Of a stretch of DNA of 64,000 nt, positions 2,111 through 63,992 are shown piece after piece. The notes below the pieces were generated by a model that saw only the letters and a program-made list of their open reading frames with translations, was not told the DNA's origin and made no database searches. Source of the stretch: a virus; IMG/VR virus record IMGVR_UViG_3300036790_000231, positions 1 to 64,000 of that record; one strand, given 5' to 3'. The position numbers and the translations under genes were made by a program. Each line of letters opens with the position of its first letter. Positions within the stretch are counted from its first letter, which is position 1.

Positions 2111-2503
2111 TTATTCTCTCAATAGAACTGGAATTTTAGCTTGTTCTCTGCGCATTTCACTTTTAGAAGGTTCTCTAATAATTGGAGCAACATCTCCCGC
2201 CAATGCTCTAGCAAAATCTGAAAGCCTCATTACTATTAGTTGCTCTCCATCAACATCTTCTAAGGATAAAACTGGGATTTCTCCAGTTCCCTGAGTATAG
2301 TCAATCGCCTCTGAAAGTTGTTCGCGAGTTTGTGACCAATTTCTCTTTGCTGCCGCCTTGCAGCTAATCCTAAGACCGTTGGCTGTAACATCTGATTTGG
2401 AGTGCCATTGGTTGCCGCTTCCAGGAACTAATTTCCCTCCCAAAATATTAGCTATATATTTCTCAAAATCTAATCCATTCTGAATTCTTTGTCGATCAGG
2501 CAT
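2111..2503 (-). CDS. PD-(D/E)XK nuclease-like protein
   Basis: 130 residues. The N-terminal half reads GLDFEKYIANILGGKLVPGS, then GNQWHSKSDV and GLRISCKAAAK. That is a glutamate helix, then an Asp (KSDV) and a C-K pair as in PD-(D/E)XK folds of Holliday-junction or Vsr-like phage nucleases. The GSGN-x-H-x-K-S-D pattern is typical of phage resolvase-like proteins. The C-terminal half is charged. The start overlaps the end of the Tad2-like gene by eight bases. Role in recombination or DNA repair is likely but the exact substrate is not visible; a second resolvase (RusA) is encoded at 15080. Confidence 0.55.
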   Translation of the reverse strand: MPDRQRIQNGLDFEKYIANILGGKLVPGSGNQWHSKSDVTANGLRISCKAAAKRNWSQTREQLSEAIDYTQGTGEIPVLSLEDVDGEQLIVMRLSDFARALAGDVAPIIREPSKSEMRREQAKIPVLLRE

Positions 2504-2747
2504 CTTCTATATCTTCATTAAAAGGAATTCCAGGAAGAGAAAACCAATCCTCAGCAAGCATATCAGTTTGGCTCGCTAACCAAGGAACTAAATCGCCTTG
2601 AACAGTTTTCATATAAATATAAGGTAATGTCATCTTTGAATTTTCATCAGGTATTTTTAAACTTAAATACATATTCTTTCCATTCCATCCATGACGTGTT
2701 ACATTTTTTCCATGTTTTAGTGATTTTATAGCATCTCCAAAATCCAT
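2496..2747 (-). CDS. tad2: DUF2829 protein, Tad2-like anti-Thoeris
   Basis: 83 residues. The start MDFGDAIKSLKHGKNVTRHG leads into WNGKNMYLSL, and later come YIYMKTVQGDLVPWLASQTD and MLAEDW. These are the signatures of the DUF2829 family over its whole usual length. Tad2, a DUF2829 protein of phages, binds the cyclic ADP-ribose isomer made by Thoeris defence and so stops activation of ThsA. The family match is seen directly; anti-Thoeris activity here is inferred from the family, and not every DUF2829 member has been tested. It follows a terminator (2761-2812), so it may be separately expressed, and is followed by the nuclease-like gene. Confidence 0.75.
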   Translation of the reverse strand: MDFGDAIKSLKHGKNVTRHGWNGKNMYLSLKIPDENSKMTLPYIYMKTVQGDLVPWLASQTDMLAEDWFSLPGIPFNEDIEDA

Positions 2748-10526: not shown

Positions 10527-13500
10527 TTATGACGGCTGCCAAGGTGCGTCGTCGCTAACCCCAGGTCCGAAATTCTGAAAACTTTTTCTCCAATTCTCGC
10601 TTTCAAATCCATTATTGCCTGTAGTTACAGGTTCTAATGCTCCATATCTTTGCTCTGTTTCTCTAGTATCTACAACTGATGGAGAGGCATTTGTCGATTG
10701 CCTCATACTATTGCTGCGCTTCTCTAGAGTAGTTGCATTTATTAAAAGATATCTCATAGCGGCTGGACCATGAGATGATTCATCATGCACTTCTTTACCG
10801 CCAGCTTGTCTCCAAGACTCAAAATCATCGCAAAGATTTGGGCATCCAACACTATCCACATATAATAGGTTATCAGTAACAAGAGCTTGAATACACTCAA
10901 TCTGAGGATCAACCTCGCGAGTAACATACCATACTGTACGCAAAGGAGGATTGTGCTCTTTCCAATCCATCCTCGCCTGTTTTCCCGCCATATCTGCGAA
11001 ACGTGCCTTGACGCGGAAGCCGGGGAATTGGGTTTTAAATTGAATCTCTTGCCGAACTACTTTCCCCGCCAAACGAGTTGCGCCCATAGTAGCCTCATAA
11101 AGCTCCTTAAAAGCTATATATGATCCTCTCGGCAAGACAGTAGAAGTACCAATATTATTTGATATCTCAAGTTCTTGATGTAACGGACCTTGGACCCAAA
11201 TAACTGTAGAGAATGCAGTTCCACCCCAATCTGTTCCTTGCCAAATTAATCCATGCTCAGGTTTTGGTCTATATCCTCTAATTGTATGCCTATCTCTATT
11301 CCAAGTTGGCAAATATAATCCATCTGCCATTGGACGACGACATTCATGTTGAGCTACCCATACATTGGGAGTATTTTGTAAGAATTTTCCAGTTACATCT
11401 TCATGGCTCATCCATCCGCGAGATCTAAAAAATCTTCCTTTACAAACTGATTCTAATGTTCTAGGAACTCCCTCAGTCCATTCACCTTTTACAACTTTAT
11501 TACAATCACATAAATCACAAGGATCTTGATCTAATTCTTTTAATCTATCTTCTCGTTTGTCTTTCGGAGCACAACGACAATTTGGGACCTCTTGCGCTGA
11601 CTCGAAGATGCAGGAAATAAATAATTTCCAGGAAGATTTAAATCCTTCTTTTTTAGCTTTAACAGCTTCATCGATTAACTTTTGCATTAATCCTTTAGAA
11701 GACTTTCTAGTAGAAGTAGCTATATCCTGAGCTTTAATTAAAGTTCCGTCTTGAAGTTTCTTCGATGAGGCCATGCTTCTTGACTCAGAAAAGACATCTT
11801 CATCCATCAAATCTATCTCATCAGCATGTACCTTTTGAGGATGCGGTGAATTAACTCCTGATTTTGTTCCGATTAATACTTCTAGTTTACTTCCATTCTT
11901 CCATCGTGTTTCTTTTCTTAATGGTTCACCATCTATAGAGCTCTTACGAACTTTTTCTCCGTTATGATTTGTTTCTTGAGAAAAAGATTTGACATAAGAA
12001 TAAGATTTATTTGACTGTGCTTCAATATCAGCAAAGCTCGCAGCCTCGCATTGTTCCTTAGTCTCACAGAATAGATAGTTAATAATTGCAACTCCGAGTG
12101 TATTATGAACTACAATATCATTAGCAATAAATGATTCTGTATTATTAACAGTCAAATCAAAAACTTCTCTATCTTTAATCTTAGTAATCTCTGTTACTGT
12201 ATCCCACCATAAATCATCATTCAAAAGAATAGAGAATTTCTTACTATCTATATCATGAGCATGGCATAAGGCTCTCAATCTCCTAGTCTGAAGAGTTTTA
12301 ACTCTTACCCTAGTAAGTTGTGAAACTCCGAAACCTTCTCCTCCAAATTGTTTCCATCCCAACATTGCACTAGCTTCTTCATTTTTTCTCTTGGCAGTCC
12401 CACGTTCTCTAATAGGAGTTAACTTTCTAAATTCTTCCAGCATCATAGAACTAATTAATGGACGTCCTTCACGAGGAGAACGATTCTTAGCACATAAATC
12501 TTCTAAATTAATTTTCTTATAATCCCATAAATTTAATTTTTCTCCAAACTTCTCGATAGATCTACTATAGACGGATAAATTCCACGCATCAAAATATTTT
12601 CCATTATATGAAGATTTTCCATACCTGACCCGCGATTGTACGCCGATCTTTAAAAGAAGATGCTGTAAATCTAAAATCATTTGTTTAGAAGCTAAGCCTA
12701 TAGACGCTTCAGAATACGTAATATATCCATCGCACATCCAAAATATAGATAAAAACTCACATAATTGTTCTTCACCCAATTCAAATATTATATCAGGAAT
12801 ATTCTTTTCTTTAGCTAGTTTACAGCTAACACTATATGATAAGAGCATTTTCTTAACAGGATTGGTAAATTCTCCATATTTCTTAACTATATTATAATCA
12901 TATCCAGAAGTATAATGAACTTCGCATCCAACTTCTTCAGAACATTCAGTCATTAAATTTACAAAATAATCATCTCCGCTAGAAAATGAAATAGTTCTTT
13001 TAGAATCTATATCTATTTTATTAATAGAACCCTCAGCCAGCAATCCTGCAATAATAGTCAAATGAGAATCTGGGATCTCTTTTTTATGTTCATGAAATGG
13101 AAGAAAAGATGGAGTAGCTAGAGTATCACCAATTTCTATCTCATCTGCTCTAAACCATCCATCTTGAATCATAAATGGATGCTCTGGGGTTACTATTATT
13201 TCTCTTCCAGATAATAAACTAACTTTCAAACAGTCTTTTTTCCCCGTATTCCACTTGCCATCTATATAGGTTGGATATATATTGCCATTTTTATCCATTG
13301 TAATAATTTTATTATATCTGTTATCATCTATAATATCTTTAATTTTATTTCTCTTGCCGGTTATAGGATCATAAATTAAAGAATCACTATCTACACACTT
13401 TGTAGATTCTCGTGAGCCGACAACTAATATCCCACGCTCTCTTTCAAAGTAATAAGCTGACATAAAATCAAAAGGGGCATTATGATCCTCGCATACAGAT

Positions 13501-13697
13501 ACACGCGGTATCTCATATCCAAACTCATCCTTGATTCTCTGCCATAATTCATCATCTGTTTTGGGAGCACCTTTTATTTTGTCAGTGGATGCCCCTTGAG
13601 TATTCTTAAACCTGCGTAGTTTTAATAACAGATCCCGTTTATCGGCATCTGACATTTCGGGCAATCTCTCTGCTATATCAGAGAAATCAATCGCCAT
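10527..13697 (-). CDS. terL: Terminase large subunit, intein-containing
   Basis: 1056 residues as translated; removing a 432-residue intein leaves 624. The N-extein ends in LVVGSRESTK and the C-extein starts TLGVAIINYLF, so the intein splits the Walker A loop (GSRESTK-T). Walker B follows in KVHADEIDLMDEDVF. A Cys-rich insert (NCRCAPKD ... DPCDLCDC) comes next, then the RNase-H-like nuclease with WQGTDWGGTAFS and SSHGPAAMRYLL. The enzyme drives ATP-dependent packaging and cuts the concatemer. It follows terS and a small protein, and precedes the portal gene. Activity requires intein splicing. Confidence 0.92.
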   Translation of the reverse strand: MAIDFSDIAERLPEMSDADKRDLLLKLRRFKNTQGASTDKIKGAPKTDDELWQRIKDEFGYEIPRVSVCEDHNAPFDFMSAYYFERERGILVVGSRESTKCVDSDSLIYDPITGKRNKIKDIIDDNRYNKIITMDKNGNIYPTYIDGKWNTGKKDCLKVSLLSGREIIVTPEHPFMIQDGWFRADEIEIGDTLATPSFLPFHEHKKEIPDSHLTIIAGLLAEGSINKIDIDSKRTISFSSGDDYFVNLMTECSEEVGCEVHYTSGYDYNIVKKYGEFTNPVKKMLLSYSVSCKLAKEKNIPDIIFELGEEQLCEFLSIFWMCDGYITYSEASIGLASKQMILDLQHLLLKIGVQSRVRYGKSSYNGKYFDAWNLSVYSRSIEKFGEKLNLWDYKKINLEDLCAKNRSPREGRPLISSMMLEEFRKLTPIRERGTAKRKNEEASAMLGWKQFGGEGFGVSQLTRVRVKTLQTRRLRALCHAHDIDSKKFSILLNDDLWWDTVTEITKIKDREVFDLTVNNTESFIANDIVVHNTLGVAIINYLFCETKEQCEAASFADIEAQSNKSYSYVKSFSQETNHNGEKVRKSSIDGEPLRKETRWKNGSKLEVLIGTKSGVNSPHPQKVHADEIDLMDEDVFSESRSMASSKKLQDGTLIKAQDIATSTRKSSKGLMQKLIDEAVKAKKEGFKSSWKLFISCIFESAQEVPNCRCAPKDKREDRLKELDQDPCDLCDCNKVVKGEWTEGVPRTLESVCKGRFFRSRGWMSHEDVTGKFLQNTPNVWVAQHECRRPMADGLYLPTWNRDRHTIRGYRPKPEHGLIWQGTDWGGTAFSTVIWVQGPLHQELEISNNIGTSTVLPRGSYIAFKELYEATMGATRLAGKVVRQEIQFKTQFPGFRVKARFADMAGKQARMDWKEHNPPLRTVWYVTREVDPQIECIQALVTDNLLYVDSVGCPNLCDDFESWRQAGGKEVHDESSHGPAAMRYLLINATTLEKRSNSMRQSTNASPSVVDTRETEQRYGALEPVTTGNNGFESENWRKSFQNFGPGVSDDAPWQPS
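12102..13397 (-). other. Intein with LAGLIDADG endonuclease (in terL)
   Basis: 432 residues (101-532 of the host ORF). Block A begins Cys (CVDSDSLIYD), block B is IIVTPEHPF with the T-x2-H, and the C-terminus is FIANDIVVHN followed by Thr as the +1 residue. Between them are two LAGLIDADG-type helices, IIAGLLAEGS and LSIFWMCDGY. The insertion point is the P-loop, one of the most conserved spots of the protein, so loss by imprecise deletion would be lethal. Confidence 0.92.
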
Positions 13698-15517: not shown

Positions 15518-15670
15518 TCAAATTTTCTCCACGATAAGTCCATAATATTCAGGAAAACTTATTTTATTTCCGTTATCAAGAATTATTGATACAAATTTTC
15601 TATCTTCCTCTTGAATTACATCTATAATTTTTCTATCTTTAAGTGATTTTATTACATCCATATTTATCAT
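15518..15670 (-). CDS. 50-residue coupled protein, unknown
   Basis: Lies in an apparent gap upstream of rusA. The ORF begins MINMDVIKSLKDRKIIDVIQ and has a beta-hairpin-like C-terminus (KFVSIILDNGNKISFPEYYG). Its ATG overlaps the TGA of the 593-residue gene (ATGA). An internal ATG at codon 4 is a possible alternative start. The amphipathic composition looks like real protein. Function unknown. Confidence 0.55.
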   Translation of the reverse strand: MINMDVIKSLKDRKIIDVIQEEDRKFVSIILDNGNKISFPEYYGLIVEKI

Positions 15671-17448
15671 CGAGGGTTATCCTGATATTCCTTTTCCCAC
15701 TTACTCATCTGTCTTGACAATCTCTCACAATCAAGATGATAATTATCTCTCAATCCCTTAAGTTTTTTAATAATTTTCATGAATGCGAACTCTTTATTAC
15801 CAAATTCGATCACTTGCGAATCAGCCGCAGTAGATTTATCGCGATAATCATTAGTTGTTTTAACTCCATCAATCATAGAAGGTATAGAACTATACACTTC
15901 TACTGCTCTACCAGTTTTAAGCTTAGTTATATCCCCTAACTTATCTTCTTCCTCAGATATGAGCCAGTTCGTTCTAACCTCACATGCATGAAATCTAGCA
16001 TGAAGAGAATATATTTCATCCCTAGAACATTTAGAAACATCATTAGGAAGTCTAGGAGGTTCTCCTCCAATTTCGTCAGGTATAGGAAGATTCTCTTTAG
16101 AGATAATTTCCATTGCCTTAGAAACATTTTTGGGTTCACGCTGAGCAACTGCTTCATGAGCGGCTTGAGCAATAGTCCTATCTTCTACGGGAGTCTCAAT
16201 GACTTGAGACTGAGCTTCTTTTTCAGCAGCTTGCTGAGCTTCTAAAAGCATTTGCTGAGGATCAAGAGCTGCTTGTGGCTGAGGCTGAGCAACTACTTTC
16301 TGTATTTCTGGAGTTAATGCTTGTACAAGTTGATCGGGAGGAATAACTTCTTTACCTGCATTCCCATCGGCCGCTTTCGCCGCATTAAGTTGCTCAAGAG
16401 AAATTTTTCCAGTGGGATTGGTAATCATCAAACGAAGCTCATTATCACCGATACTAGGAACTTCTTTTCTTCCTCTGCGATAAGCTTTCAAAGTTGGCCC
16501 AGTTAACAGAGACTCTAATGTCTCACGATCAGAAGATGAATTCATTTCCGTGCTATCAGATGAATCCAAACCAACATCTGCCTTAGTCACTAATTGAACT
16601 GGAGCTTGCGCTCCCATATCCATCCCTGCTATTGCTTCTTTTCCACCGATTTTAGATAGTTTAGTTTCAATCATTTCATCCTCTTTATTGACTTCAGCCG
16701 GTGGTCCATCTGGATTAGCAATCATAAAATTTAATTTATCCGTATCAATTTTCTCTACTTCAACAAACTTTACACCATAATTTTCAAGAATAGAAAGATT
16801 GAGTTGATTAATTACTTCAGTGCGTTCTCCATCTTCCTCAATCGGCTTGGCTTTAGCTTTTTTCCCTTCTGGGCTCGTCTCAGGAGTTTGTACTCTGGCA
16901 AAAGCGCTGGCATTTTCTCCGGTTTCTTCTCCGGCCGTTTCCCCAGCAGGCATATTCTCATTTCCATTTTCCTGTAATGCTTGCTCATTCGTAGCTTGCG
17001 ATTCTTGTACCTGTGGGACTTCTTCCATTGCTTTTGCATTAGCTCTTCTTTCTTTCTCGGCTAAAAATGCTGCTCTCTGCTGTTCAACAGGAGGAGTAGC
17101 AACGTATTTATCAAGACCTGTAATCAAATTCTCTAATATGGCATCTGAAACTGTAGTAAGATCAATACCAGAATCATTAGTTGCTTGCTGAACTGGTTCT
17201 GGCTGCGGGATCGGCGCGGCAGGTGGTTGTTGATCTACCTCAGCCAAAAACAGAAGAGCCATGACATTCTCAGATTTATTGCCTGACTTGGCTGCATTCC
17301 TGGCAGCTGCGACTAATTGGAGAGCATCCTGCATGCGTCTCTCGGGCTCAGGAGGCGGCACATTGCCTGGGCTCTCGTATAAGCCTCGCTGAAGCGATTC
17401 GATGAGAATAGCTTTTGCTTGTTCATCATTTAATGTTATTTCAGTCAT
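15667..17448 (-). CDS. Large Gln/Pro-rich protein, unknown
   Basis: 593 residues. The first 460 or so are low-complexity and acidic, rich in Gln, Pro, Glu and Ala, with short repeated phrases such as LNFMIANPDGPP and LRLMITNPTGK that look like two copies of one 50-residue unit. The C-terminal 130 residues are a helical domain: LPNDVSKCSRDEIYSLHARF, then coiled-coil-like stretches ending CERLSRQMSKWEKEY. Phage proteins with this C-terminal domain occur in replication regions. No enzymatic motif is visible. Neighbours are the Cas4-like nuclease and RusA, so a part in recombination or replication is plausible. Confidence 0.65.
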   Translation of the reverse strand: MTEITLNDEQAKAILIESLQRGLYESPGNVPPPEPERRMQDALQLVAAARNAAKSGNKSENVMALLFLAEVDQQPPAAPIPQPEPVQQATNDSGIDLTTVSDAILENLITGLDKYVATPPVEQQRAAFLAEKERRANAKAMEEVPQVQESQATNEQALQENGNENMPAGETAGEETGENASAFARVQTPETSPEGKKAKAKPIEEDGERTEVINQLNLSILENYGVKFVEVEKIDTDKLNFMIANPDGPPAEVNKEDEMIETKLSKIGGKEAIAGMDMGAQAPVQLVTKADVGLDSSDSTEMNSSSDRETLESLLTGPTLKAYRRGRKEVPSIGDNELRLMITNPTGKISLEQLNAAKAADGNAGKEVIPPDQLVQALTPEIQKVVAQPQPQAALDPQQMLLEAQQAAEKEAQSQVIETPVEDRTIAQAAHEAVAQREPKNVSKAMEIISKENLPIPDEIGGEPPRLPNDVSKCSRDEIYSLHARFHACEVRTNWLISEEEDKLGDITKLKTGRAVEVYSSIPSMIDGVKTTNDYRDKSTAADSQVIEFGNKEFAFMKIIKKLKGLRDNYHLDCERLSRQMSKWEKEYQDNPR

Positions 17449-17576: not shown

Positions 17577-17693
17577 TTATAAAGTATTTATATAAAGTTC
17601 TATACTTTTTATATTTACTGATGGAGCTTTGTGATCAAGTAAATGTTCTAATTTTGTTTTTATATGTTTTTCTAACTTTATTTTATCGTTCAT
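17577..17693 (-). CDS. 38-residue coupled protein, unknown
   Basis: Begins MNDKIKLEKHIKTKLEHLLD at an ATG overlapping the TGA of the Cas4-like nuclease gene (ATGA). It is mainly helical and charged, with a short C-terminal KSIELYINTL. It sits in an apparent gap. No family recognised. Confidence 0.5.
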   Translation of the reverse strand: MNDKIKLEKHIKTKLEHLLDHKAPSVNIKSIELYINTL

Positions 17694-18733
17694 TTCCCCT
17701 CCCAAAATTCCAAGACTGCCTTACGAGTTTTCTCAAAGTCATAATCAGGTCTAATAGTTTGGTTGTGTTTAATTAAGTTTGATTTTGATAAGCTAGTTAC
17801 TTTTTCTTTATAATCAATTTTACATATTGATTTCTTTAAATCACACCATTTACACGGGTCGACTGACCACTTTGCAGATTGACCCTCAAGTACATGAGGA
17901 GGTATTTTATCTTCAAGAAAATATTGTTTCCATTTAGCTAACTTTTCACTACCAGATTTATAAAACGTAGGATCATATTTAGCATAATATGAAACAGTAT
18001 TCAACGGTTCCTCACGTGGTGCATATATCAAAGTTCCACTATCGGGAGGTTCAACTGAAATTAAAACTCCATCGCATTCTCCATCATGCTTATGATTACA
18101 TTTAAATTTTTTATTCATGATGGTTCCACTAATTCTACACACCATAGCTGATGGTGTAAAAGGCATATCATGTGCTCTACATATATAAAGTTTAAGCTGA
18201 CGCATATACTTGGTATGAGACATGGGTACATTACCAGGATCAGACTTCATATTTTCTACCTTTTCCATCGAGGTAGTCTTAATCTCTACAACATGAGCCT
18301 TCTTAGTAAAACGTGGAAGTATGATTGCATCAGGAGAACCAGTTAACCATATATTTGAGTCTTCAAAACTTGTTTGAAAGTCATCATCACCAGTTACATC
18401 GGCCGAAAGTAGAATCCCATGACGGCTCAATCTTTCAACGAATCTATGCTCAATATCCAATCCCTGATCGAATAGCATTCGGACTCTTGGCTCACGAGGT
18501 TTTTCTTCATATGGATCTAATAACCCATATACTTGCGCACGTCCGCAAACAAGATCATCTTCACCCGGAAATTGTGAGCCATGCATACTTAGATGCCAGC
18601 TTCTTCCATGAGGATTTTGAATCTCCTCTTTCCATCTCTTTTTCTCATCGAATTCATATGCCTCAAGCAAAGCACCTTCAAATACCGTTGAATTATTTAA
18701 CTCTCCCCATAGTGCTTCGCGAGTCATTCCCAT
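17690..18733 (-). CDS. Cas4/RecB-like PD-(D/E)XK exonuclease
   Basis: 347 residues. The nuclease core is WLTGSPDAIILP (Asp135) followed by HVVEIKTTS (Glu150 and Lys152). A cysteine at LVCGRAQVYG (Cys63) and three near the end in DPCKWCDLKKSIC would make the four-cysteine iron-sulfur cluster of Cas4/AddB-type nucleases. Such phage enzymes resect DNA ends for recombination. The RecA-like ATPase lies about 0.9 kb upstream in the same operon, which fits a shared recombination job. The ATG at 18733 overlaps the upstream stop (TAATG). Confidence 0.8.
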   Translation of the reverse strand: MGMTREALWGELNNSTVFEGALLEAYEFDEKKRWKEEIQNPHGRSWHLSMHGSQFPGEDDLVCGRAQVYGLLDPYEEKPREPRVRMLFDQGLDIEHRFVERLSRHGILLSADVTGDDDFQTSFEDSNIWLTGSPDAIILPRFTKKAHVVEIKTTSMEKVENMKSDPGNVPMSHTKYMRQLKLYICRAHDMPFTPSAMVCRISGTIMNKKFKCNHKHDGECDGVLISVEPPDSGTLIYAPREEPLNTVSYYAKYDPTFYKSGSEKLAKWKQYFLEDKIPPHVLEGQSAKWSVDPCKWCDLKKSICKIDYKEKVTSLSKSNLIKHNQTIRPDYDFEKTRKAVLEFWEGK

Positions 18734-18909: not shown

Positions 18910-18944
18910 TTAGCTCCCCATAGTGCGCTTCTACTCATTCCCAT
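18897..18944 (-). repeat. Duplicated start of the Cas4-like gene
   Basis: Read on the minus strand, this stretch begins ATGGGAATGA and continues with GCACTATGGGGAG, the same blocks as the first 31 bases of the nuclease gene (18703-18733), with eight differing bases between the blocks. It encodes MGMSRSALWGAKWKK then stop, against MGMTREALWGEL for the intact gene. It has its own TAATG junction with the upstream gene. It is best read as the original start left behind, or a copy made, when the 58-residue ORF was inserted. Confidence 0.55.
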
Positions 18945-19192
18945 TATTTTGCCTCTATAACTTTTGCCAACCTTAAAATTCCTTCACAAATATTTACTTT
19001 TATTGATCCATTTCCAGTTATTATTTGCTTAGGACATAAAATGTTGTCTTCACTATCTTTGAGAGGTTTCATCTTTAAATCTCTATTTGAAAACTCTTCT
19101 CCAAACGAACAAAGATAAACAGGATTAAGAGCCTCTAGCTCGCTCATAACCTCTCCACATTTATCACAAATAAAACAAATATATTTTTTCAT
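18944..19192 (-). CDS. Small zinc-ribbon protein
   Basis: 82 residues from the ATG that overlaps the stop of the SLOG frame (ATGA); an ATG six bases earlier is possible. MKKYICFICDKCGEVMSELE gives a C-x2-C-x2-C cluster, with further Cys in VYLCSF, ILCPKQ and NICEG. The later cysteines are spaced as in a two-site zinc protein. Function unknown. Confidence 0.6.
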   Translation of the reverse strand: MKKYICFICDKCGEVMSELEALNPVYLCSFGEEFSNRDLKMKPLKDSEDNILCPKQIITGNGSIKVNICEGILRLAKVIEAK

Positions 19193-19548
19193 GACCATCT
19201 CCCTTCCAAAAATACGTGTGTCTCAATTTCTCGTATTTCGACTTCTCTAATTGTATGTTGATTACCCTTTGAGTGGGGATTGCTCATTAAAGCATATACA
19301 ATATCTGGCTTACCCTTGTCTAACATTTCTATATTCCTTTTTGGTCCTGCTGCGTTCCCATATAATCCCCATTTAGCTGGAAAAGAATCAATTTTAATAC
19401 CTTTTTATTTAGCTAATTTTTCTGCAATTTCATCTGCTCCAGCAGCATTTCCAGCAATTAATATATCTGTATTCTTCATCTGATTTATAATATCTTGAAT
19501 TGGACCACTATTTACCAAATCTCGACTACCGCAAATAAGAACTTTCAT
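19189..19548 (-). pseudogene. SLOG/DUF2493 protein with in-frame TAA
   Basis: The frame starts MKVLICGSRDLVNSGPIQDI and runs for 119 codons with one internal TAA at 19405-19407 (codon 48). Before it are the glycine motif CGSRD and IAGNAAGADEIAEKLAK. After it, in the same frame, come FPAKWGLYGNAAGPKRNIEM and DIVYALMSNPHSKGNQHT. These match the DUF2493 (YspA-like SLOG) family from end to end: GSRD, GARGAD, PA-x-W, AGPxRN-x-ML. SLOG proteins bind nucleotide-type ligands. One base change in an otherwise intact gene means a recent nonsense mutation, readthrough or a sequencing error. Both ends keep ATGA coupling to neighbours. Confidence 0.75.
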
Positions 19549-19652
19549 ATCATTCTCGATTTATATTTGTTACATTTAGTACATCTTTTAAATTGCCTAT
19601 TATCATATTGAAGATCAGACCATCTGCTCCATTTATGAAAACAAAATCTCAT
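19545..19652 (-). CDS. 35-residue zinc-knuckle protein
   Basis: MRFCFHKWSRWSDLQYDNRQ then FKRCTKCNKYKSRMI: a C-x-H pair and a C-x2-C pair, enough for one zinc site. Its ATG overlaps the TGA of the RecA-like gene (TGATG) and its own TGA overlaps the SLOG start (ATGA region). Phage proteins of this tiny C-x-H-x-W...C-x2-C type are common. No function is known to me. Confidence 0.55.
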   Translation of the reverse strand: MRFCFHKWSRWSDLQYDNRQFKRCTKCNKYKSRMI

Positions 19653-20746
19653 CAGTTTCCCGCTAACATCGCTGTTTTTATTATACCAGATAATTCCTCA
19701 TCGGCATCTATGAGCTGACGGAGTTGACGTTCTCCTTGTACTTTTCTACCTTCGGGAAGAGAATACCAACTACTTTTCTCGCCACTTTTTTGAGCGATTG
19801 CAGGCTGACCGACATGATGAGCAATATTTCCTTGTTTATCGAAATACATTGCTGCATCCATAAGCTCGAAAGTATGATCGAATTGGAATGTATGTAAATC
19901 CAGCCTCATATTCGCCTTTCTTAATGGTCTACAAATTCGGCTCTTATTAACTTCAACAACTATCTCTTGACCATCTGCCTCCTTCTGTCCACCAATTCCC
20001 ATAATTCCTTTCTCCTTCAATTTATCCTCAGTGGTGAGAAGGCCATCATCATCATAATAAAGCCATTTGGTCTTTTTGAAATGAATTGATAGAGAAGACT
20101 TATGCTCCGGATTACGACCACCAATAGCTTTAGTAGAATGAGTTTTCATATTTTCACTCTCATGATCAATCATTATAATTGCATTTTCATCCTTATCAAG
20201 AGCATCGTGAACATATCCCATACACTTCTTCCATACGCGAGCCTCTAAATTTACATCCCAATCACCAGGATCTTTAGCCAATCTATCTTGCGGCACTGCT
20301 TCAGATCGAGAATCCCAAATATGAACATGATTAGATTTTAAAAGAGTTTGAGTTTGAGCAGTTAAATCCTCAATAACATCAACCTCAACTACCAACATAG
20401 ATTCTATATCTACACCAAGAGATTTAGTAAAAACCGAATCATATTGCTTCTCTATATTGTAATAAACTGTTTTCAATCCATTGAGAAATTTGATATTTTT
20501 TAAATTTTGTGCAGATTTAATTACTTCCCATGCCATTAAACTCTTGGCGCTTGATGGCCCTCCCCAAAATCTAGAAAATCTTCCAAGAGGAATACCACCA
20601 GAAGTAATTCTCATCATTGCCGGACTAGCTAAAGGAATTCGATCAACAGGAGGTTGTTCACTGCCTAAATGAATTGTATCTTTTGAATATTTTTTTCTGA
20701 TCGCCGCAAGATCACGATCTAAATTCTCAGGTTCAACTGGCGACAT
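19652..20746 (-). CDS. RecA-like recombination ATPase
   Basis: 364 residues. After an N-terminal helix (LAAIRKKYSKDTIHLGSE), the core has RITSGGIPLGRFSRFWGGPS and the Walker A loop GGPSSAKS (62-69). That loop lacks the usual GK(T/S) glycine (Ala67). A Walker B-like strand AIIMIDHESEN follows. RecA-type proteins pair homologous strands; phage forms act in recombination-dependent replication. The Cas4-like nuclease downstream could prepare its substrate. The length fits bacterial RecA, but similarity is mostly to the core, so it may be a UvsX/RecA-like variant or a RadA-type loader. Confidence 0.75.
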   Translation of the reverse strand: MSPVEPENLDRDLAAIRKKYSKDTIHLGSEQPPVDRIPLASPAMMRITSGGIPLGRFSRFWGGPSSAKSLMAWEVIKSAQNLKNIKFLNGLKTVYYNIEKQYDSVFTKSLGVDIESMLVVEVDVIEDLTAQTQTLLKSNHVHIWDSRSEAVPQDRLAKDPGDWDVNLEARVWKKCMGYVHDALDKDENAIIMIDHESENMKTHSTKAIGGRNPEHKSSLSIHFKKTKWLYYDDDGLLTTEDKLKEKGIMGIGGQKEADGQEIVVEVNKSRICRPLRKANMRLDLHTFQFDHTFELMDAAMYFDKQGNIAHHVGQPAIAQKSGEKSSWYSLPEGRKVQGERQLRQLIDADEELSGIIKTAMLAGN

Positions 20747-20873: not shown

Positions 20874-21133
20874 GAATGTGGCTCAATTTTTGTTCTTCCT
20901 CTATTGTAATGAGGAATTGGGTCTTTAATAAATCTTCCGTCATTTCCTATCGCTATAACCCTATATCGAGGCCAATCTAGATCCCCATATGATTCATCCA
21001 TCTCTTCTAATAACTCTACAAAATTCTTCTGCCACTCATCAGGCATAGACTGTAAAACGGATCTTGGAAGACATAGATAGTTTGCATAAGTTAAACTGAA
21101 CCATGTATGAATTGCCTCAAAATCATCAGCCAT
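20870..21133 (-). CDS. Conserved phage protein (LPRSVLQSMPDEWQ family)
   Basis: 87 residues from the ATG at 21133, which has GGAG nine bases upstream; a longer in-frame start at 21169 lies inside the polymerase gene. The segment AIHTWFSLTYANYLCLPRSV, then LQSMPDEWQKNFVELLEEMD and DPIPHYNRGRT, is a pattern I know from many actinobacteriophage replication regions, always unannotated. It overlaps the end of dnaE by eight bases. Its constant company with replication genes suggests an accessory role there, but this is inference. Confidence 0.65.
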   Translation of the reverse strand: MADDFEAIHTWFSLTYANYLCLPRSVLQSMPDEWQKNFVELLEEMDESYGDLDWPRYRVIAIGNDGRFIKDPIPHYNRGRTKIEPHS

Positions 21134-24100
21134 CAGACTGCTCCATTTCTTGTGCAAACTCCTCAACATTCATCATCATATTGACAATAATTCCTCTCGA
21201 ATCTTTTCTGCCCCTAACCATTACTGCACTTCCGTTATAAAGCATTTCTTTATATTGTTGATATTGACCAGGAAAGATAGTAAGATTGAAGTTATCAAAT
21301 CCAAGACCAATCTTCGCAAATGCCATCTCTTGTCCTGGATTCCTACCATTTTTAGTCTTAATTTTCTTTACTTCGGTTATTTGACCGCCGATAATAGCAT
21401 CCTCGCCGACCTCCAGTTCATCGTATTCAGCCTCAGAATGCGTTTTTTCAATCACCAATTCCTCATAATCACCGAGGGTCCCACCTGGGCTCAGGGCCAT
21501 ACCAAGTAATTGCATCTCAGCTTCTGCTTTTTCTTTATTGCTCCATCCCGCGCGGCCTCCCAACGAATCCAAAGCTCCTACTTTCAACAATGCTTCTCTG
21601 ACTTTTTTGTTGCATTTAGAATATTTCGCATTGGTACGTTTCTCAAAATCTTCATACGAAACAAATGGACGATGTTCTATTATCCAATCAGCCGCTGTCT
21701 CGCCAACTCCCTTTATACCAATAAGTCCATAACGTAGAGCATTATTATCAAAATCAGGTGTGTAATCTGATCCAGATATATTTACATCAGGAGGTAAAAT
21801 ACTAATACCAAAATCTCTAGCCTCACGGATTGCGCGCAAAGATTCCTTTGGTTCTAATGACATAATTACAGAATATGTATCCATTGGATAATAAAACTTT
21901 AACCATGCATCCTGATAACTTTGAAGGCTATACCCACTTGCATGACCGCGATTGAATGAATTGTGAGAAACAATTTCATTGGCTATGAAATTATGCTCAT
22001 AACTATCCATTTCTATATCAAATGTTGGCTCTATATCATATTTTTCTATAGAAATTATTTTATCTAATTCAGTTGGTCTGCCCTTTGTCCAACGTCTTTT
22101 TCTATCACCTTTTCGATAATCATATTTCTTATGACAAGAGTTACAAAAATGTTTTATATTTTCAGGAGAATTGTATCGTTTGATATCTCCATTGAATTCA
22201 TCCAAAAATTTTAAATGAGCAAACTCTAAGTCGTGCTTTTCTTCTTCTCCAATTTGCCCACAATTCTCACAAATTCCCCTAGATCTGTCGGATACTATTT
22301 TTTTAGTTTCATTTAAATATGAGTGTCTACCATCTATCCAACCAGGATTATCTTCTCCATTGGGAGTGCCTTCCCCTTCGTAAGATTTTCCTATTCCACG
22401 GTTCACCAATCCTCTAGCTACATATTTCTGTAATTCTTTTTCCCCCATTGTTATCAAATAATCATCAACAGTTAATTCTTTTATTTCCTTATATCCATCA
22501 TTAGTTAATAATCTATGATTATCTGTAGCTTTTATAAATTTGCCGCTTTGAAGAATTACTTTATATGTTTCTCTAAATCCACTAAACCATATATTTTTTG
22601 CTATTGCCGGCCTTATTCTGCCATCAGAATCCATTGCTAATAATTTAGCTCCCTTCCATCTAAGCTTTTTACCAATAGACTCTTTAGAATGCCAGTTATA
22701 ATATAATTGTTCAGCAGTAATATTAGGACTTTTATCATATCTACCCGATCCAGCTCTAATTAATTCCGTATCTCCTGAGATACAATAATCACAATATGGT
22801 TCAATTTCACTAAATAAAACTTCAGCTTTTTCTAGTCCAACATGCTCAGAAGCCTTTTCTACAAACTCTTTTTTATGTTTATCAAGAGCTTCCTTAGCTT
22901 TTCCTCCACGTTCACGATAAAGCTTAGCAATAATCTTTCTAATACCATCTGCTTGTCCTGGAGTATATTCTGCCAAAGTCTCAAATAGTTCCATAACCTG
23001 CTCTTGAAATGCAATTACTCCATATGTGTCATCAAGAATATCTATCAATGTATCTGGTATTTCATATTCCTCTTCTTCATTCTTCCTATCAGCAAAGTGA
23101 AAAGGCCCTTGCGCTCCCATTGGACCAGGACGATAAAGTGCATTGATCGCTGCTAAATGAACTATATTGTCTGGCTTAGCTCTTTTTATAAAATTAGTAA
23201 TACCATTGTTAGAAAATTGGTTAACTCCTAATGTCAATCCATTACTAAGAGATTTCATAACTTTGGACTCCGCCGCATAAGGATCTTTCAAAACAGGCAA
23301 ATTATCTATATCTACAACCTCTCCAGTACGCTCAAAAACTAAATCAATAATCATTTGCTGTTGATCCATACCAGTCAATCCAAGAGCATCAACCTTCACA
23401 AATCCAAAGTCATCAACAATAGAAAGACGCGGTGTCTCTGACCAAGCAGTTCTAAATCCTTCTTCATTCTCTCCCGCACGAATAGTTGGTATATGATCTG
23501 TAACGGCAGTAGGTGTGATAACCACAGCCGCCGCGTGCTTGCTTATGGTTTTAATAAATGGATCTCCACCATTCTCTAATCTAACTGCATGCATCCAAGC
23601 TACAGGATATTTTTGACTCCATTGCATCAATTGAGGTATCCTATTTTTCATCTCTTCTAAATCAGAATCATGAGTAGGATCTATCAGTCCTGAATCTTTA
23701 TGGCAAATCTTAGAAATCTCCTCATCAGGATCTGATTTGAATCCATACAAAGTCTTAGTAATAGATTTCAAAGCAGCAACAGGAGTAAATCTCTGCTGAG
23801 CCATGATGTCTGCAACCTTCTCACGTCCATACTTTCTTACCAAATATTCCTTAGCAATCTTACGTCCATTGCCTGCTTTCTCCAAAGTAGGAAAATCGAT
23901 ATCAATATCGGGTAATCCCTTACGTTCTGGGTTCAAGAACCGCTCGAACTTGAGCTTATAAGGAATTGGATCAAGAGTGGTAATTCGGGAGAGATAACAT
24001 ACAAGAGAACCTGCTGCTGAACCTCTTCCATTACTCAACCTCATCGGCCGCTTTTTGGCCGGAGTTGGGTCATCAGGAGTTGGTGGTAATGGTGCATCAC

Positions 24101-25190
24101 TACGGCACCATCTAATCCAATCTCCCACAATACACATATAATTAAAGTTTTCTCTCTTCTTAATAACTTCTAACTCGTACTCTAATTGTTTCTCATAAAT
24201 AGGATCTCCAACTTTTTCGATCCTTTCCATTCCTTCTCTGCACCATTTTCTAACTTCACTTTCAGCATCAACCTTAACTACCGGCATCTTGATTGATCTA
24301 TCAACTAAAAACGGTTCAATTCTCGACGCAATATAGTCAGTATTCTTGATAGATTCTTCGACAGCCTGAAGAGGGATATCTGGGTGATTAGATACAAACG
24401 AATCCCGTACTTCTTTTTCATCCATAATATGAAGGCCGGGATGCCATAACTCATATATCTCTTCACCTTTTGCTATTCTTTCTTTATTCTTTTGTTCAGC
24501 CTCCGCGACTGTCTGATTCATCCCTATAAGAATTGATAGTTTCTGAGTTTCCTCCCATCCCTCAAATGGATAATGAGAATCACCCTCATAAACTATCGGT
24601 ATTCCAAATTGATTAGCATATGAAATTACTTCTAAATTGACCTTACGTTGAAGATCAAAATCATGAGGCATAATACTAAAATACAAATCGTCGGAATAGA
24701 TATCAAGAGCAGTCCTAATCCATTGCTTAATTTCTGTGTCAGAACCATTCTGGACAAGAAAAGATAAAGGACCGAGAATACAAGAACTAGAACAAATAAT
24801 TCCATCTTTATACTCCCTCATCAAGTCAAAATCCACACACGGATTCTGGTAGAAACCACTAGAAAATGCATGACTTGAAAGCTTAATTAAATTGTGCCAT
24901 CCCTTGAGATTTTTGGCGAGAAATATAATATGCCATCTCTTAAAACGCCACTCTTTCTCTCTAACTAATCTGTTAGGCCTCCAATAAGACTCGATGCCGC
25001 AAATAGGATGAATTTCTATTTCATCGCAAGCCTTTATATGCTTGAGCGATCCATTTAAGTTGCCGTGGTTTGTCTGGCTTATTGCAAATTGATTTAATTC
25101 AGCGGCTCTTTTAGCAGCTTGAAGTGGAGTTCCTAATCCATCAAGAACTGAATCGCTGTCATGTCTGTGTAAGTGGATAACGATAATCAC
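21126..25190 (-). CDS. dnaE: DNA polymerase III alpha subunit, intein-containing
   Basis: 1354 residues as translated, 1079 after removing a 275-residue intein. Seen in order: a PHP domain at the N-terminus (IHLHRHDSDSVLDGLG, SQTNHGNLNG), the palm with GRGSAAGSLVCYLSR and the catalytic LPDIDIDFP, the fingers region with NALYRPGPMGA, then after the intein SFNRGHASGYSLQSYQDAWL, a helix-hairpin-helix part (GLIGIKGVGETAAD) and an OB-like C-terminus. It is the replicative polymerase of the phage. The start is a GTG overlapping the HNH gene stop; the PHP domain begins at once, which supports that start. Confidence 0.93.
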   Translation of the reverse strand: MIIVIHLHRHDSDSVLDGLGTPLQAAKRAAELNQFAISQTNHGNLNGSLKHIKACDEIEIHPICGIESYWRPNRLVREKEWRFKRWHIIFLAKNLKGWHNLIKLSSHAFSSGFYQNPCVDFDLMREYKDGIICSSSCILGPLSFLVQNGSDTEIKQWIRTALDIYSDDLYFSIMPHDFDLQRKVNLEVISYANQFGIPIVYEGDSHYPFEGWEETQKLSILIGMNQTVAEAEQKNKERIAKGEEIYELWHPGLHIMDEKEVRDSFVSNHPDIPLQAVEESIKNTDYIASRIEPFLVDRSIKMPVVKVDAESEVRKWCREGMERIEKVGDPIYEKQLEYELEVIKKRENFNYMCIVGDWIRWCRSDAPLPPTPDDPTPAKKRPMRLSNGRGSAAGSLVCYLSRITTLDPIPYKLKFERFLNPERKGLPDIDIDFPTLEKAGNGRKIAKEYLVRKYGREKVADIMAQQRFTPVAALKSITKTLYGFKSDPDEEISKICHKDSGLIDPTHDSDLEEMKNRIPQLMQWSQKYPVAWMHAVRLENGGDPFIKTISKHAAAVVITPTAVTDHIPTIRAGENEEGFRTAWSETPRLSIVDDFGFVKVDALGLTGMDQQQMIIDLVFERTGEVVDIDNLPVLKDPYAAESKVMKSLSNGLTLGVNQFSNNGITNFIKRAKPDNIVHLAAINALYRPGPMGAQGPFHFADRKNEEEEYEIPDTLIDILDDTYGVIAFQEQVMELFETLAEYTPGQADGIRKIIAKLYRERGGKAKEALDKHKKEFVEKASEHVGLEKAEVLFSEIEPYCDYCISGDTELIRAGSGRYDKSPNITAEQLYYNWHSKESIGKKLRWKGAKLLAMDSDGRIRPAIAKNIWFSGFRETYKVILQSGKFIKATDNHRLLTNDGYKEIKELTVDDYLITMGEKELQKYVARGLVNRGIGKSYEGEGTPNGEDNPGWIDGRHSYLNETKKIVSDRSRGICENCGQIGEEEKHDLEFAHLKFLDEFNGDIKRYNSPENIKHFCNSCHKKYDYRKGDRKRRWTKGRPTELDKIISIEKYDIEPTFDIEMDSYEHNFIANEIVSHNSFNRGHASGYSLQSYQDAWLKFYYPMDTYSVIMSLEPKESLRAIREARDFGISILPPDVNISGSDYTPDFDNNALRYGLIGIKGVGETAADWIIEHRPFVSYEDFEKRTNAKYSKCNKKVREALLKVGALDSLGGRAGWSNKEKAEAEMQLLGMALSPGGTLGDYEELVIEKTHSEAEYDELEVGEDAIIGGQITEVKKIKTKNGRNPGQEMAFAKIGLGFDNFNLTIFPGQYQQYKEMLYNGSAVMVRGRKDSRGIIVNMMMNVEEFAQEMEQSDG
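21960..22784 (-). other. Intein with HNH endonuclease (in dnaE)
   Basis: 275 residues (803-1077 of the ORF), beginning CISGDTELIR and ending FIANEIVSHN, with Ser as +1 residue. Block B is KATDNHRLL. An HNH nuclease lies inside: CENCGQIGEEEKHDLEFAHL, then NSPENIKHFCNSCHKKYD. The insertion site, Y before (C/S)FN-x-(G/S)H, is the same as that of the split DnaE inteins of cyanobacteria (C-extein CFN). Confidence 0.92.
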
Positions 25191-33439: not shown

Positions 33440-33523
33440 GGCAGCGTGCCCAAACTGGTAAAGGGACCTCGTTTAAGCCGAGGCGGCTTCACGGCCTTGC
33501 GAGTTCGACTCTCGCCGCTGCTA
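33440..33523 (+). tRNA. tRNA-Leu (anticodon TAA)
   Basis: A class II tRNA of 84 bases. Acceptor GGCAGCG (33440-33446) pairs with CGCTGCT (33516-33522), including one G-U pair, discriminator A33523. Anticodon stem CCTCG/CGAGG encloses loop TTTAAGC with anticodon TAA (33474-33476). A long variable arm (about 33484-33498) is typical of leucine. The T-arm is GCGAG TTCGACT CTCGC. CCA is not encoded. It reads UUA, a codon frequent in AT-rich genes. Its last bases touch the end of the minus-strand gene at 33521. Confidence 0.85.
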
Positions 33524-34000
33524 CTCATATATCTTACTTCTATTGAGCTGTATATCTCTTTCGGCATTTTTCTTTGCCGTCCATTTGAACCAAGTGGTTC
33601 CCTGATGACAAATCTGATCTACATCGGATACTCCACTATACTTCATTGATCTTCCATTTATAAATGTTCTCTTTATTGATAATCTACGAACAGTATACTC
33701 CCACTTAAATATTCTAACTTTATTAAATTCTTTTATTACTCCACCTTCGGCTGCCGTTAAATTAAGTTTATTAATTTCTTTTCTATAATTATTTTTTGAT
33801 TTCATATCTATAACAGTACAATAATCATCCTCGCATATCCAACCATTATCAAAAGCATCTAACTCACAGTACTTTGAATGACTTCCTTTATAGAAAGTAT
33901 TCATTGTCACTCCAGGACCAGTCGGCCTATTTTCATGCTTCCAATCATTACCAAGTTTTTTAGCAATTTCTTCTGCATTACCTGTTAAGAAACTCAACAT
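33521..34000 (-). CDS. Phage protein, unknown
   Basis: 159 residues from the ATG at 34000 (AAAGGATATA upstream); a start at 34015 is possible. It overlaps the helicase end by about 20 bases. MLSFLTGNAEEIAKKLGNDW is followed by a mixed domain with Cys (YCELDAFDNGWICEDDYC) and a basic C-terminal half with KYSGVSDVDQICHQGTTWFK. No family recognised. It is the last gene before the plus-strand island, and its stop lies within the tRNA 3 prime end. Confidence 0.6.
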   Translation of the reverse strand: MLSFLTGNAEEIAKKLGNDWKHENRPTGPGVTMNTFYKGSHSKYCELDAFDNGWICEDDYCTVIDMKSKNNYRKEINKLNLTAAEGGVIKEFNKVRIFKWEYTVRRLSIKRTFINGRSMKYSGVSDVDQICHQGTTWFKWTAKKNAERDIQLNRSKIYE

Positions 34001-59903: not shown

Positions 59904-62171
59904 TTAGTTTCCTTTTCCGTTCTCGCTGAGCATCATTTTGATATAAGGATCATCTTTTAAGCTAGGATCGGCTTTTACCCATTCCTGAGCCATGTCAATG
60001 CCAGTTTTCTTTTTATCTGGATCGCTTGCTTTAGTCTGCAAATCTGGTCGCCCATTTACAGGACTCTGCAATAATGATGCTTGCTCTGCAAAAGCTATTT
60101 TCTGTTTATCGTTTCTAGGAAGAGCTTTGACAATTCTTTCAACAATTTGGGTAGCTGTCTCAGGTATCGAAACAGTATGACCGTTATCAGACAATTGAAG
60201 TTTAATTGCTACATCTTCATCATCGCTAAGTAAAATGGTTTCAATCTCTTTAAGCAAACCAGGAAACTCTTTTAATCCTTCGTCAGCAAGCTCAGAAATT
60301 CTATTTTCTACACGAGCTTTTTTCTCTTTATTTTTAGTCTCAGAAAGTTCAGAATTTATTTTCTCTATCTGAATATTCTGTTGCCTCTGAAACTCTTTAG
60401 CCTCATTAGAGAGGCCAAGAAGCTCCATTTGCTCCTCTGACATAGCAAGAAGCGTCATATTCCCTCCTTGGGGCTGATTACTTAAATGTGTTCCTCTTCT
60501 GCGCTCGCTGGCAATGATTAGAGGATCTTGTGACATACTTAATTTACTAGAAGTTTTTTTATCTTTCCCAAAACCAGGCAAAGATTCTATATCTACGCCA
60601 AGCTCTTTTGCTCTGCGCCGTATAAGAGTTTTAGCTGCTTCGTAATCTCCATGTTTAGAAGCAGCTAAAACAGCAGCGGCGTGAAGTTGTTTAACATTGT
60701 TTATAGGATATGATCCATCAGGTAATGAATTATTATTAGATTTAGCTTTATCTCTTTCTGCTTGATCTACAGAAAGATAAAGGTCAACTATAATTTTCTC
60801 TTGCTCGGATAGTCCCATCCCTTTTCCTAATTTGTCTAGTTGCTCTTTATCTTCTTTAGGATCAATTGTATCATTTACCCATCTTTTACTTACATCAATC
60901 CATTGTGAAAAAGATGATAAATGAACAACGTTTTTATCATCTACTGTATAAGGAACCACCCAAGCATCATCATCTTGTCCAACTCCATAATTTACCTTTA
61001 CTAAGGCTTTTCCATCAGTAATATCTATAACAAAATATTGTGGGTATGAATCAAAATCAGGCTCAAAAGTATCTAATATCCTTTCAACCTGATTCTCTAT
61101 ATCATGATAGGAAGGTTTTTCTCCCCATTGAATATCCGCAAGAAACTCACCTTTAGAAGCAGTTTTCTCTGTTTTTGGTGGCTCTGTGATTTCTTGCGAA
61201 AGTTGTGAAATCAATTTTGGTGGATCTAGTTTATTCTCCGGAACAGTAATATCTTTTTCCGATAACATCATAGATATTATAGTTCTCTCAGAAAAATCGC
61301 TAGATTTACTTCCATAAGCAGATATTCCACCCATCCAAGGTTTATGAGTAAGCGCTGTATGATCTAAAGCCACTGGATATACTTTTCCCGTGGTAGTATT
61401 TTTATAGTCATATAAAATTCCAGAAGAACGAGAAGGAATAGTACCTCTCTGGACTTTTCCCTTAATATCTGGCTCAGTGAATTCATGAGCGGCCAGAACT
61501 ACTTTCTCGCCAGGGAACTTTTTAGAATCTGCTATTACAAGCTGTTTTATATATCCTGTATTTTCTAAAAGATTATTTTCATGGCTAGTCGGAATAGTTA
61601 CATACTCTATTGCATTATCATTAAAAGCATCTACAATGTCTTCCAGTCCAATAGCTTTTGTAGGATCGTTAGAATGACCAGGAACAAATATAAGAGGCTC
61701 ATCTAGCTTCTCACCATTTGGACCAGGACGTGTCGCAAGCATTCCCGATCTAAGAATAGGGGCCCAAATCAATCCATTATCATCTTCACCAAGAGTAATT
61801 GGCTCTTCAAGATTTATGTCTGAATAAATCTCAAATCCAAGATCTGTACTTTTATCTTTTAGAAGTTTAGAAAAATCTTCGGAAAATCCTGTATTTAGAT
61901 TTTTCATGAGAGTTGATTTAGCCCATACCTCACCCGCAGGGCCGCCCCAAAGGAGATCCTCACAATCTTCTTTTGGACATTGGTCATGAGAGGCATGGAA
62001 ATGAGCCATATCTGCGACATGCTCGTCAGCAAGTGGTTGACCAGAAGCAATTTTTTTGCCTATTTCCCAAGTTCTAGCAGGCATGTCGGGAGAAAAACGT
62101 CCTTCATCGCGAAGTGCTAATCCTTTTTTTGCCGCCGATTTCATCGCAGCAGTCGGCTGATTTTTTTTCAT
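59904..62171 (-). CDS. Prohead protease with scaffold-like C-terminus
   Basis: 755 residues. The N-terminus (SPDMPARTWEIGKKIASGQP, LADEHVADMAHFHASHDQC, DLLWGGPAGEVWA) is a module found in phage protease genes. The protease core shows VTIPTSHENNLLENTGYIKQ (His197), GTIPSRSSGILYDY (Ser249/250) and HTALTHKPWMGG, as in Mu-type prohead proteases. A second module, LPDGSYPINNVKQLHAAAVL (about 495-515, DUF6582-like), precedes a coiled, Gln-rich C-terminus that resembles a scaffold. It should cleave head proteins and itself during maturation. Confidence 0.8.
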   Translation of the reverse strand: MKKNQPTAAMKSAAKKGLALRDEGRFSPDMPARTWEIGKKIASGQPLADEHVADMAHFHASHDQCPKEDCEDLLWGGPAGEVWAKSTLMKNLNTGFSEDFSKLLKDKSTDLGFEIYSDINLEEPITLGEDDNGLIWAPILRSGMLATRPGPNGEKLDEPLIFVPGHSNDPTKAIGLEDIVDAFNDNAIEYVTIPTSHENNLLENTGYIKQLVIADSKKFPGEKVVLAAHEFTEPDIKGKVQRGTIPSRSSGILYDYKNTTTGKVYPVALDHTALTHKPWMGGISAYGSKSSDFSERTIISMMLSEKDITVPENKLDPPKLISQLSQEITEPPKTEKTASKGEFLADIQWGEKPSYHDIENQVERILDTFEPDFDSYPQYFVIDITDGKALVKVNYGVGQDDDAWVVPYTVDDKNVVHLSSFSQWIDVSKRWVNDTIDPKEDKEQLDKLGKGMGLSEQEKIIVDLYLSVDQAERDKAKSNNNSLPDGSYPINNVKQLHAAAVLAASKHGDYEAAKTLIRRRAKELGVDIESLPGFGKDKKTSSKLSMSQDPLIIASERRRGTHLSNQPQGGNMTLLAMSEEQMELLGLSNEAKEFQRQQNIQIEKINSELSETKNKEKKARVENRISELADEGLKEFPGLLKEIETILLSDDEDVAIKLQLSDNGHTVSIPETATQIVERIVKALPRNDKQKIAFAEQASLLQSPVNGRPDLQTKASDPDKKKTGIDMAQEWVKADPSLKDDPYIKMMLSENGKGN

Positions 62172-63793: not shown

Positions 63794-63992
63794 CCTCAAT
63801 TTCTTTCATTTCATGAGAATTCAATGCTGGAGAGAAAATATGTCCACAAAAAGAACATTTAATAATTACATTCAATTCATCTTGGAATTCTCTTGACAAA
63901 TCAAATCTATTGAATGATAAAATGTCATGTAACTGCTTATCGTGCGGACAACGCAGTTTTCCATCTTCAAACAACGACCTACTCACGCGCAC
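63777..63992 (-). CDS. Zinc-ribbon protein, possibly cut by window edge
   Basis: 71 residues from a GTG at 63992; the frame stays open to the window edge, so the true start may lie outside. LRCPHDKQLHDIL and IIKCSFCGHIFSP form a C-x2-H/C-x2-C site. It overlaps the intein-split gene by 17 bases. Its role is unknown. Confidence 0.55.
   Translation of the reverse strand: MRVSRSLFEDGKLRCPHDKQLHDILSFNRFDLSREFQDELNVIIKCSFCGHIFSPALNSHEMKEIEDGIRV

Follow-up and report, generated by a model that had tools for sequence, protein, structure and literature searches.

YAcAr SLOG domains have been named in jumbo phages (PMC7824862), and the SLOG domains of viruses have a predicted role in sensing or cleaving signals derived from NAD, among them the cyclic ADP-ribose variants that host immunity uses (PMC9503650). 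An intact member of the family is a single-domain, nucleotide-binding SLOG/Rossmann protein of the YspA/YAcAr (DUF2493) type. The family is presumed to be a counter-signalling one, with a predicted activity on signals derived from NAD or ADP-ribose. Relatives of the protein considered here are encoded in 671 phage records. A second point of reference is the recoding of stop codons: the phage reassignments described in PMC11210395 concern TAG and TGA, not TAA, and UAA ranks lowest for read-through among the three stops (PMC5289835). Here, we describe a phage SLOG reading frame interrupted by one in-frame TAA, which is probably an ochre (nonsense) allele of a gene that is accessory and dispensable.

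The stretch of DNA analysed (the window) comprises bases 1 to 64,000 of a 91,255-base virus record, a metagenomic contig. The record represents a tailed phage with a DnaE-type polymerase, a RecA/UvsX-like recombinase, a DnaB-like helicase, ThyX, and a class II ribonucleotide reductase. The SLOG frame sits with small open reading frames (ORFs) between the RecA-like and Cas4-like genes (Table 1). It runs from an ATG (19548-19546) to a terminal TGA (19191-19189), and codon 48, a TAA, is the sole in-frame stop before that end. Under the standard code, the gene thus encodes 47 of 119 residues, and its open frame falls short of the whole domain. The initial annotation had described a frame intact except for this codon, with ATGA coupling at both ends; its coordinates, the overlaps with both neighbours, and the motifs of the read-through frame (CGSRD, GNAAGAD, and PAKWGLYGNAAGPKRN) were all confirmed, and the strand, which it left unstated, is the minus strand. 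The 82-aa downstream gene may be translated even with the coupling lost, because it has its own Shine-Dalgarno-like sequence.

Table 1. Features of the interrupted SLOG locus and the borders of its variable slot
Feature	Position	Strand	Evidence
Cas4-like exonuclease, downstream border of variable slot	17690..18733	-	phrog_1990; in both sisters
Downstream gene, 82 aa, Cys-rich; its ATG (19192-19190) overlaps the SLOG TGA as ATGA	18944..19192	-	
SLOG (YspA/YAcAr, DUF2493) frame: 119 codons and a terminal TGA, with a premature stop at codon 48	19189..19548	-	translation, PF10686, phrog_289, AlphaFold2
C-terminal remnant, SLOG frame kept, 71 codons, with AGPKRN and SKGN blocks	19189..19404	-	phrog_289 E 3e-9 alone
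Shine-Dalgarno-like GGAAGGGAG of the 82-aa downstream gene, within the SLOG 3' end	19199..19207	-	read from sequence
In-frame TAA, codon 48, then A	19405..19407	-	translation; 13 residue kinds aligned in 28 homologues
47-aa ORF read from the SLOG ATG; holds only strands 1-2 and helices 1-2	19405..19548	-	
Upstream 35-aa Cys-containing ORF; its TGA (19547-19545) overlaps the SLOG ATG as ATGA	19545..19652	-	
RecA/UvsX-like recombinase, upstream border of variable slot	19652..20746	-	phrog_97, PF00154; in both sisters

The SLOG frame is the remnant of a real gene. Read through, it scored 33.8 bits against Pfam YAcAr (PF10686), above the curated cut-off of 28.2 bits; its N-terminal half alone scored 24.1 bits, under that cut-off. 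The whole frame matched phrog_289 with an E value of 1.9e-22, and the halves matched independently (5.1e-7 for the N-terminal and 3e-9 for the C-terminal half). This match was the single one in the whole record, making the frame single copy, and the second TAA counted in it lies upstream of the SLOG start codon. A row of 71 sense codons follows the stop, with a chance of ∼0.008 at this base composition. Codon usage placed the N-terminal part at the 84th and the C-terminal part at the 23rd percentile among real-gene stretches of the phage, and both parts, above 99 to 100% of wrong-frame stretches, fall within the coding range. A frameshift reading of the stretch was ruled out, as the two other minus-strand frames are full of stops.

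An AlphaFold2 model of the read-through protein, for which ten sequences were supplied and the stop was entered as Q, showed a complete Rossmann fold of five strands at a pLDDT of 93.8; residue 48 lies close to where the helix of residues 38 to 49 ends. The top Foldseek matches of this model were viral YspA/DUF2493 proteins (TM 0.91); among solved structures, it matched Cam1, DprA, and ShosA. Judging from the model, the 47-aa product should form no SLOG domain.

For comparison, we assembled 28 homologues, comprising the copy of a sister phage, other viral contigs, and named phages. The initial annotation had pointed to such relatives for signs of separate short proteins ending at codon 48; the position is open in 28/28, and none of them ends there. 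The aligned residue is of 13 types, and the position is thus unconstrained. The conserved residues of the family are kept in the read-through frame except at positions 87 and 96: residue 87 is L where 26/28 homologues have F, and residue 96 is N where all 28 have T or S.

Two sister contigs, G005 (93.6 kb) and G006 (91.4 kb), were reached via the major head protein. Neither the SLOG frame nor the polymerase retrieved relatives in protein searches of viral contigs, and a search with the RecA-like protein returned distant phages only, none with a SLOG match. G005 (IMGVR_UViG_3300027908_000003) carries an intact SLOG gene of 116 aa at 76832-77182 on the minus strand, with a product 53% identical to the frame described here. 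Like that frame, it has ATGA-type overlaps at both ends and belongs to a similar length class; unlike it, it has no internal stop and lies at another locus, ∼46 kb from its own RecA gene. The SLOG gene is absent from G006. Between its RecA-like and Cas4-like genes, G006 has a single 53-aa ORF and G005 a set of other genes. The SLOG gene is therefore accessory and dispensable across related phages, and the different location of the G005 copy indicates that it is mobile cargo. That location also leaves a functional tie between SLOG and RecA, as position might suggest, unsupported.

Of the three options offered by the initial annotation (a nonsense mutation, read-through, or a wrong base), the nonsense mutation is the best supported. 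An otherwise complete family member carries a single TAA, the homologues are uniformly open, and the gene is intact in one sister and missing from the other. Translation would stop after 47 residues, leaving half of the fold without the AGPKRN block and strands 3 to 5, and this genome is not expected to yield a working SLOG protein because that product would be only such a half fold. The loss would be tolerated, since the gene occupies a slot of variable cargo flanked by the RecA-like and Cas4-like genes and is dispensable across related phages. The N at residue 96 hints at relaxed selection, with which it is compatible. Weighing against a nonsense allele, no broad decay is visible: conservation after the stop relative to that before it is similar to that in the homologues (z −0.19), and 38/66 aligned codons after the stop encode the residue of the sister versus 21/47 before it. 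We infer that the base call is correct and that the SLOG protein is not made.

The base call itself could be at fault through a consensus or assembly error or a mixture of strains, such that the population is mostly intact and the contig base at codon 48 is wrong or in the minority. A single base change would suffice, the rest of the frame is free of broad decay, and the record is a metagenomic contig. We nevertheless consider this explanation unlikely. Across the 46 G005 and 48 G006 proteins aligned to the record (15,665 and 15,999 residues, respectively), no internal stop occurs besides that of SLOG, and because no other was found in these ∼15,700 residues per sister, the record sequence is generally clean. 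Furthermore, an error at codon 48 would leave unexplained the change from T/S to N at residue 96, an independent anomaly. Two other apparent interruptions in G005 were rejected: in one, the alignment had extended upstream past a start codon, and the other was an antisense ORF.

One option of the initial annotation was a nonsense mutation caught recently. The presence of a single lesion agrees with this, and the age is only loosely bounded by an estimate of divergence. Of the point mutations in what is left of the SLOG frame, ∼6% would create a new stop; assuming 5 to 10% indels, a second lesion becomes 50% likely at ∼2 to 3% neutral divergence and 95% likely at ∼8 to 12%. "Recent" is thus a loose bound on the mutation, because a second lesion is likely only after 2 to 3% divergence. 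The frame behind the stop would still be open because there have been too few mutations so far for a second stop or a frameshift, and such an open frame, taken alone, is no evidence of recoding.

A conserved post-stop frame might instead reflect functional read-through, in which a near-cognate tRNA decodes UAA at a useful rate and yields a low dose of full-length SLOG protein. The phage encodes a tRNA-Gln(UUG) that might read UAA as a near-cognate codon; position 48, being unconstrained, would accept whichever amino acid was inserted, and the frame is conserved as much after the stop as before it. Against this, the tetranucleotide UAAA is a normal terminator in this phage, where it ends 17/59 minus-strand ORFs that are 100 aa or longer, and UAA is the least leaky stop (PMC5289835). 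No suppressor tRNA or other tRNA reading UAA is encoded in the record, and no stimulatory RNA structure was found downstream of the SLOG stop, where the RNA is less folded than its shuffles (z +1.56). The sister that also encodes the tRNA-Gln has an intact SLOG gene, and none of the 28 homologues has a stop at this position. The features expected of read-through (a leaky context, a suppressor tRNA or structure, and a stop conserved in relatives) are therefore missing, and we regard functional read-through as very improbable. The chance is slimmer still that the natural host decodes TAA usefully and provides a small SLOG dose, which would be a rare instance of a phage cargo gene expressed through functional read-through of UAA.

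Production of both parts as a split protein, with the 47-aa N-terminal part and a reinitiated C-terminal part assembling together, is less plausible again. The stop is closely followed by AAAAAGG, which is similar to a weak Shine-Dalgarno sequence and stands ahead of ATT codons. In-frame ATG, GTG, and TTG codons are absent before codon 75, however, and a start there would lose AGPKRN; moreover, 0/28 homologues are split. That this phage has recoded TAA in general has, in our judgment, next to no chance of being correct, in line with the initial dismissal of this reading. An open frame spanning one TAA speaks for it, yet TAA is the commonest terminator of the phage (31/74 ORFs that are 100 aa or longer), and where a conserved gene stops at TAA, its sister homologues stop at about the matching place. 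A reassigned codon should be depleted as a terminator and occur inside many genes; here, one internal TAA was found in all shared genes. General TAA recoding is thus refuted by the gene ends, and the phage reassignments that PMC11210395 describes are of TAG and TGA.

Comparison with the sisters also brought out features elsewhere in the window. A 1,056-aa ORF at 10527-13697 (minus strand) contains an intein made up of a splicing domain and LAGLIDADG (residues ∼114 to 532), and its homologues in the sisters (631 and 628 aa) have no intein. The DnaE-type polymerase (21126-25190, minus strand) carries an intein with an HNH domain (residues ∼853 to 1077) that is lacking from the polymerases of the sisters, and a 543-aa ORF at 62168-63799 (minus strand) has an intein of ∼350 residues within a protein whose length in the sister phages is only 176 aa. 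A 593-aa ORF at 15667-17448 (minus strand) had no Pfam or PHROG match and is kept in both sisters at 38 to 40% identity. A tRNA-Leu with anticodon UAA, which reads UUA and is not a suppressor, lies at 33440-33524 (plus strand), on the strand opposite the genes, and is also carried by the sisters.

The initial annotation further linked the SLOG frame to a Tad2-like gene. That gene is real (2496-2747, minus strand; PF11195, 93.8 bits) and lies ∼16.4 kb from the SLOG frame. G005 has a copy that is 74% identical and in a different place in the genome, and G006 has none. Among the ten records with a SLOG match (that of the window and nine others), most of which are fragments, three contain a Tad2-like gene. 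The two genes have a general theme in common, and we found no specific tie beyond joint presence here and in one sister.

On its own, the interrupted SLOG frame is an ordinary case of little significance. It offers a clean example of a dispensable gene, from a presumed counter-signalling family, that was probably lost in one lineage and is intact in relatives. If many SLOG copies were broken likewise, the gene would seem to be useful against some hosts only.

Among described systems, the stop-codon-recoded phages (TAG to Gln or TGA to Trp; Crassvirales and others) resemble this one in having an in-frame stop inside a conserved gene. They differ from it in that the phage described here has one such TAA, in one accessory gene, with no suppressor tRNA and with TAA used normally elsewhere. 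The DprA/Smf (PDB 3uqz) and ShosA (PDB 8zva) proteins share the Rossmann/SLOG fold (Foldseek TM-score of 0.74 to 0.76 over the query) and are larger, multidomain proteins with 16 to 18% identity to the SLOG frame. The closest counterparts are the phage YspA/YAcAr SLOG proteins (PF10686, DUF2493; phrog_289 "GTP-binding domain"; "DprA-like" in actinophages), with which the frame has in common its sequence family, fold, and single-domain architecture, as well as the conserved G7, R9, GAD, W60, AG..RN, and G95. Like theirs, it is a short cargo gene of the kind often ATGA-joined to its neighbours; unlike them, it is interrupted at codon 48 and departs from the family in having N for T/S at residue 96 and L for F at residue 87.
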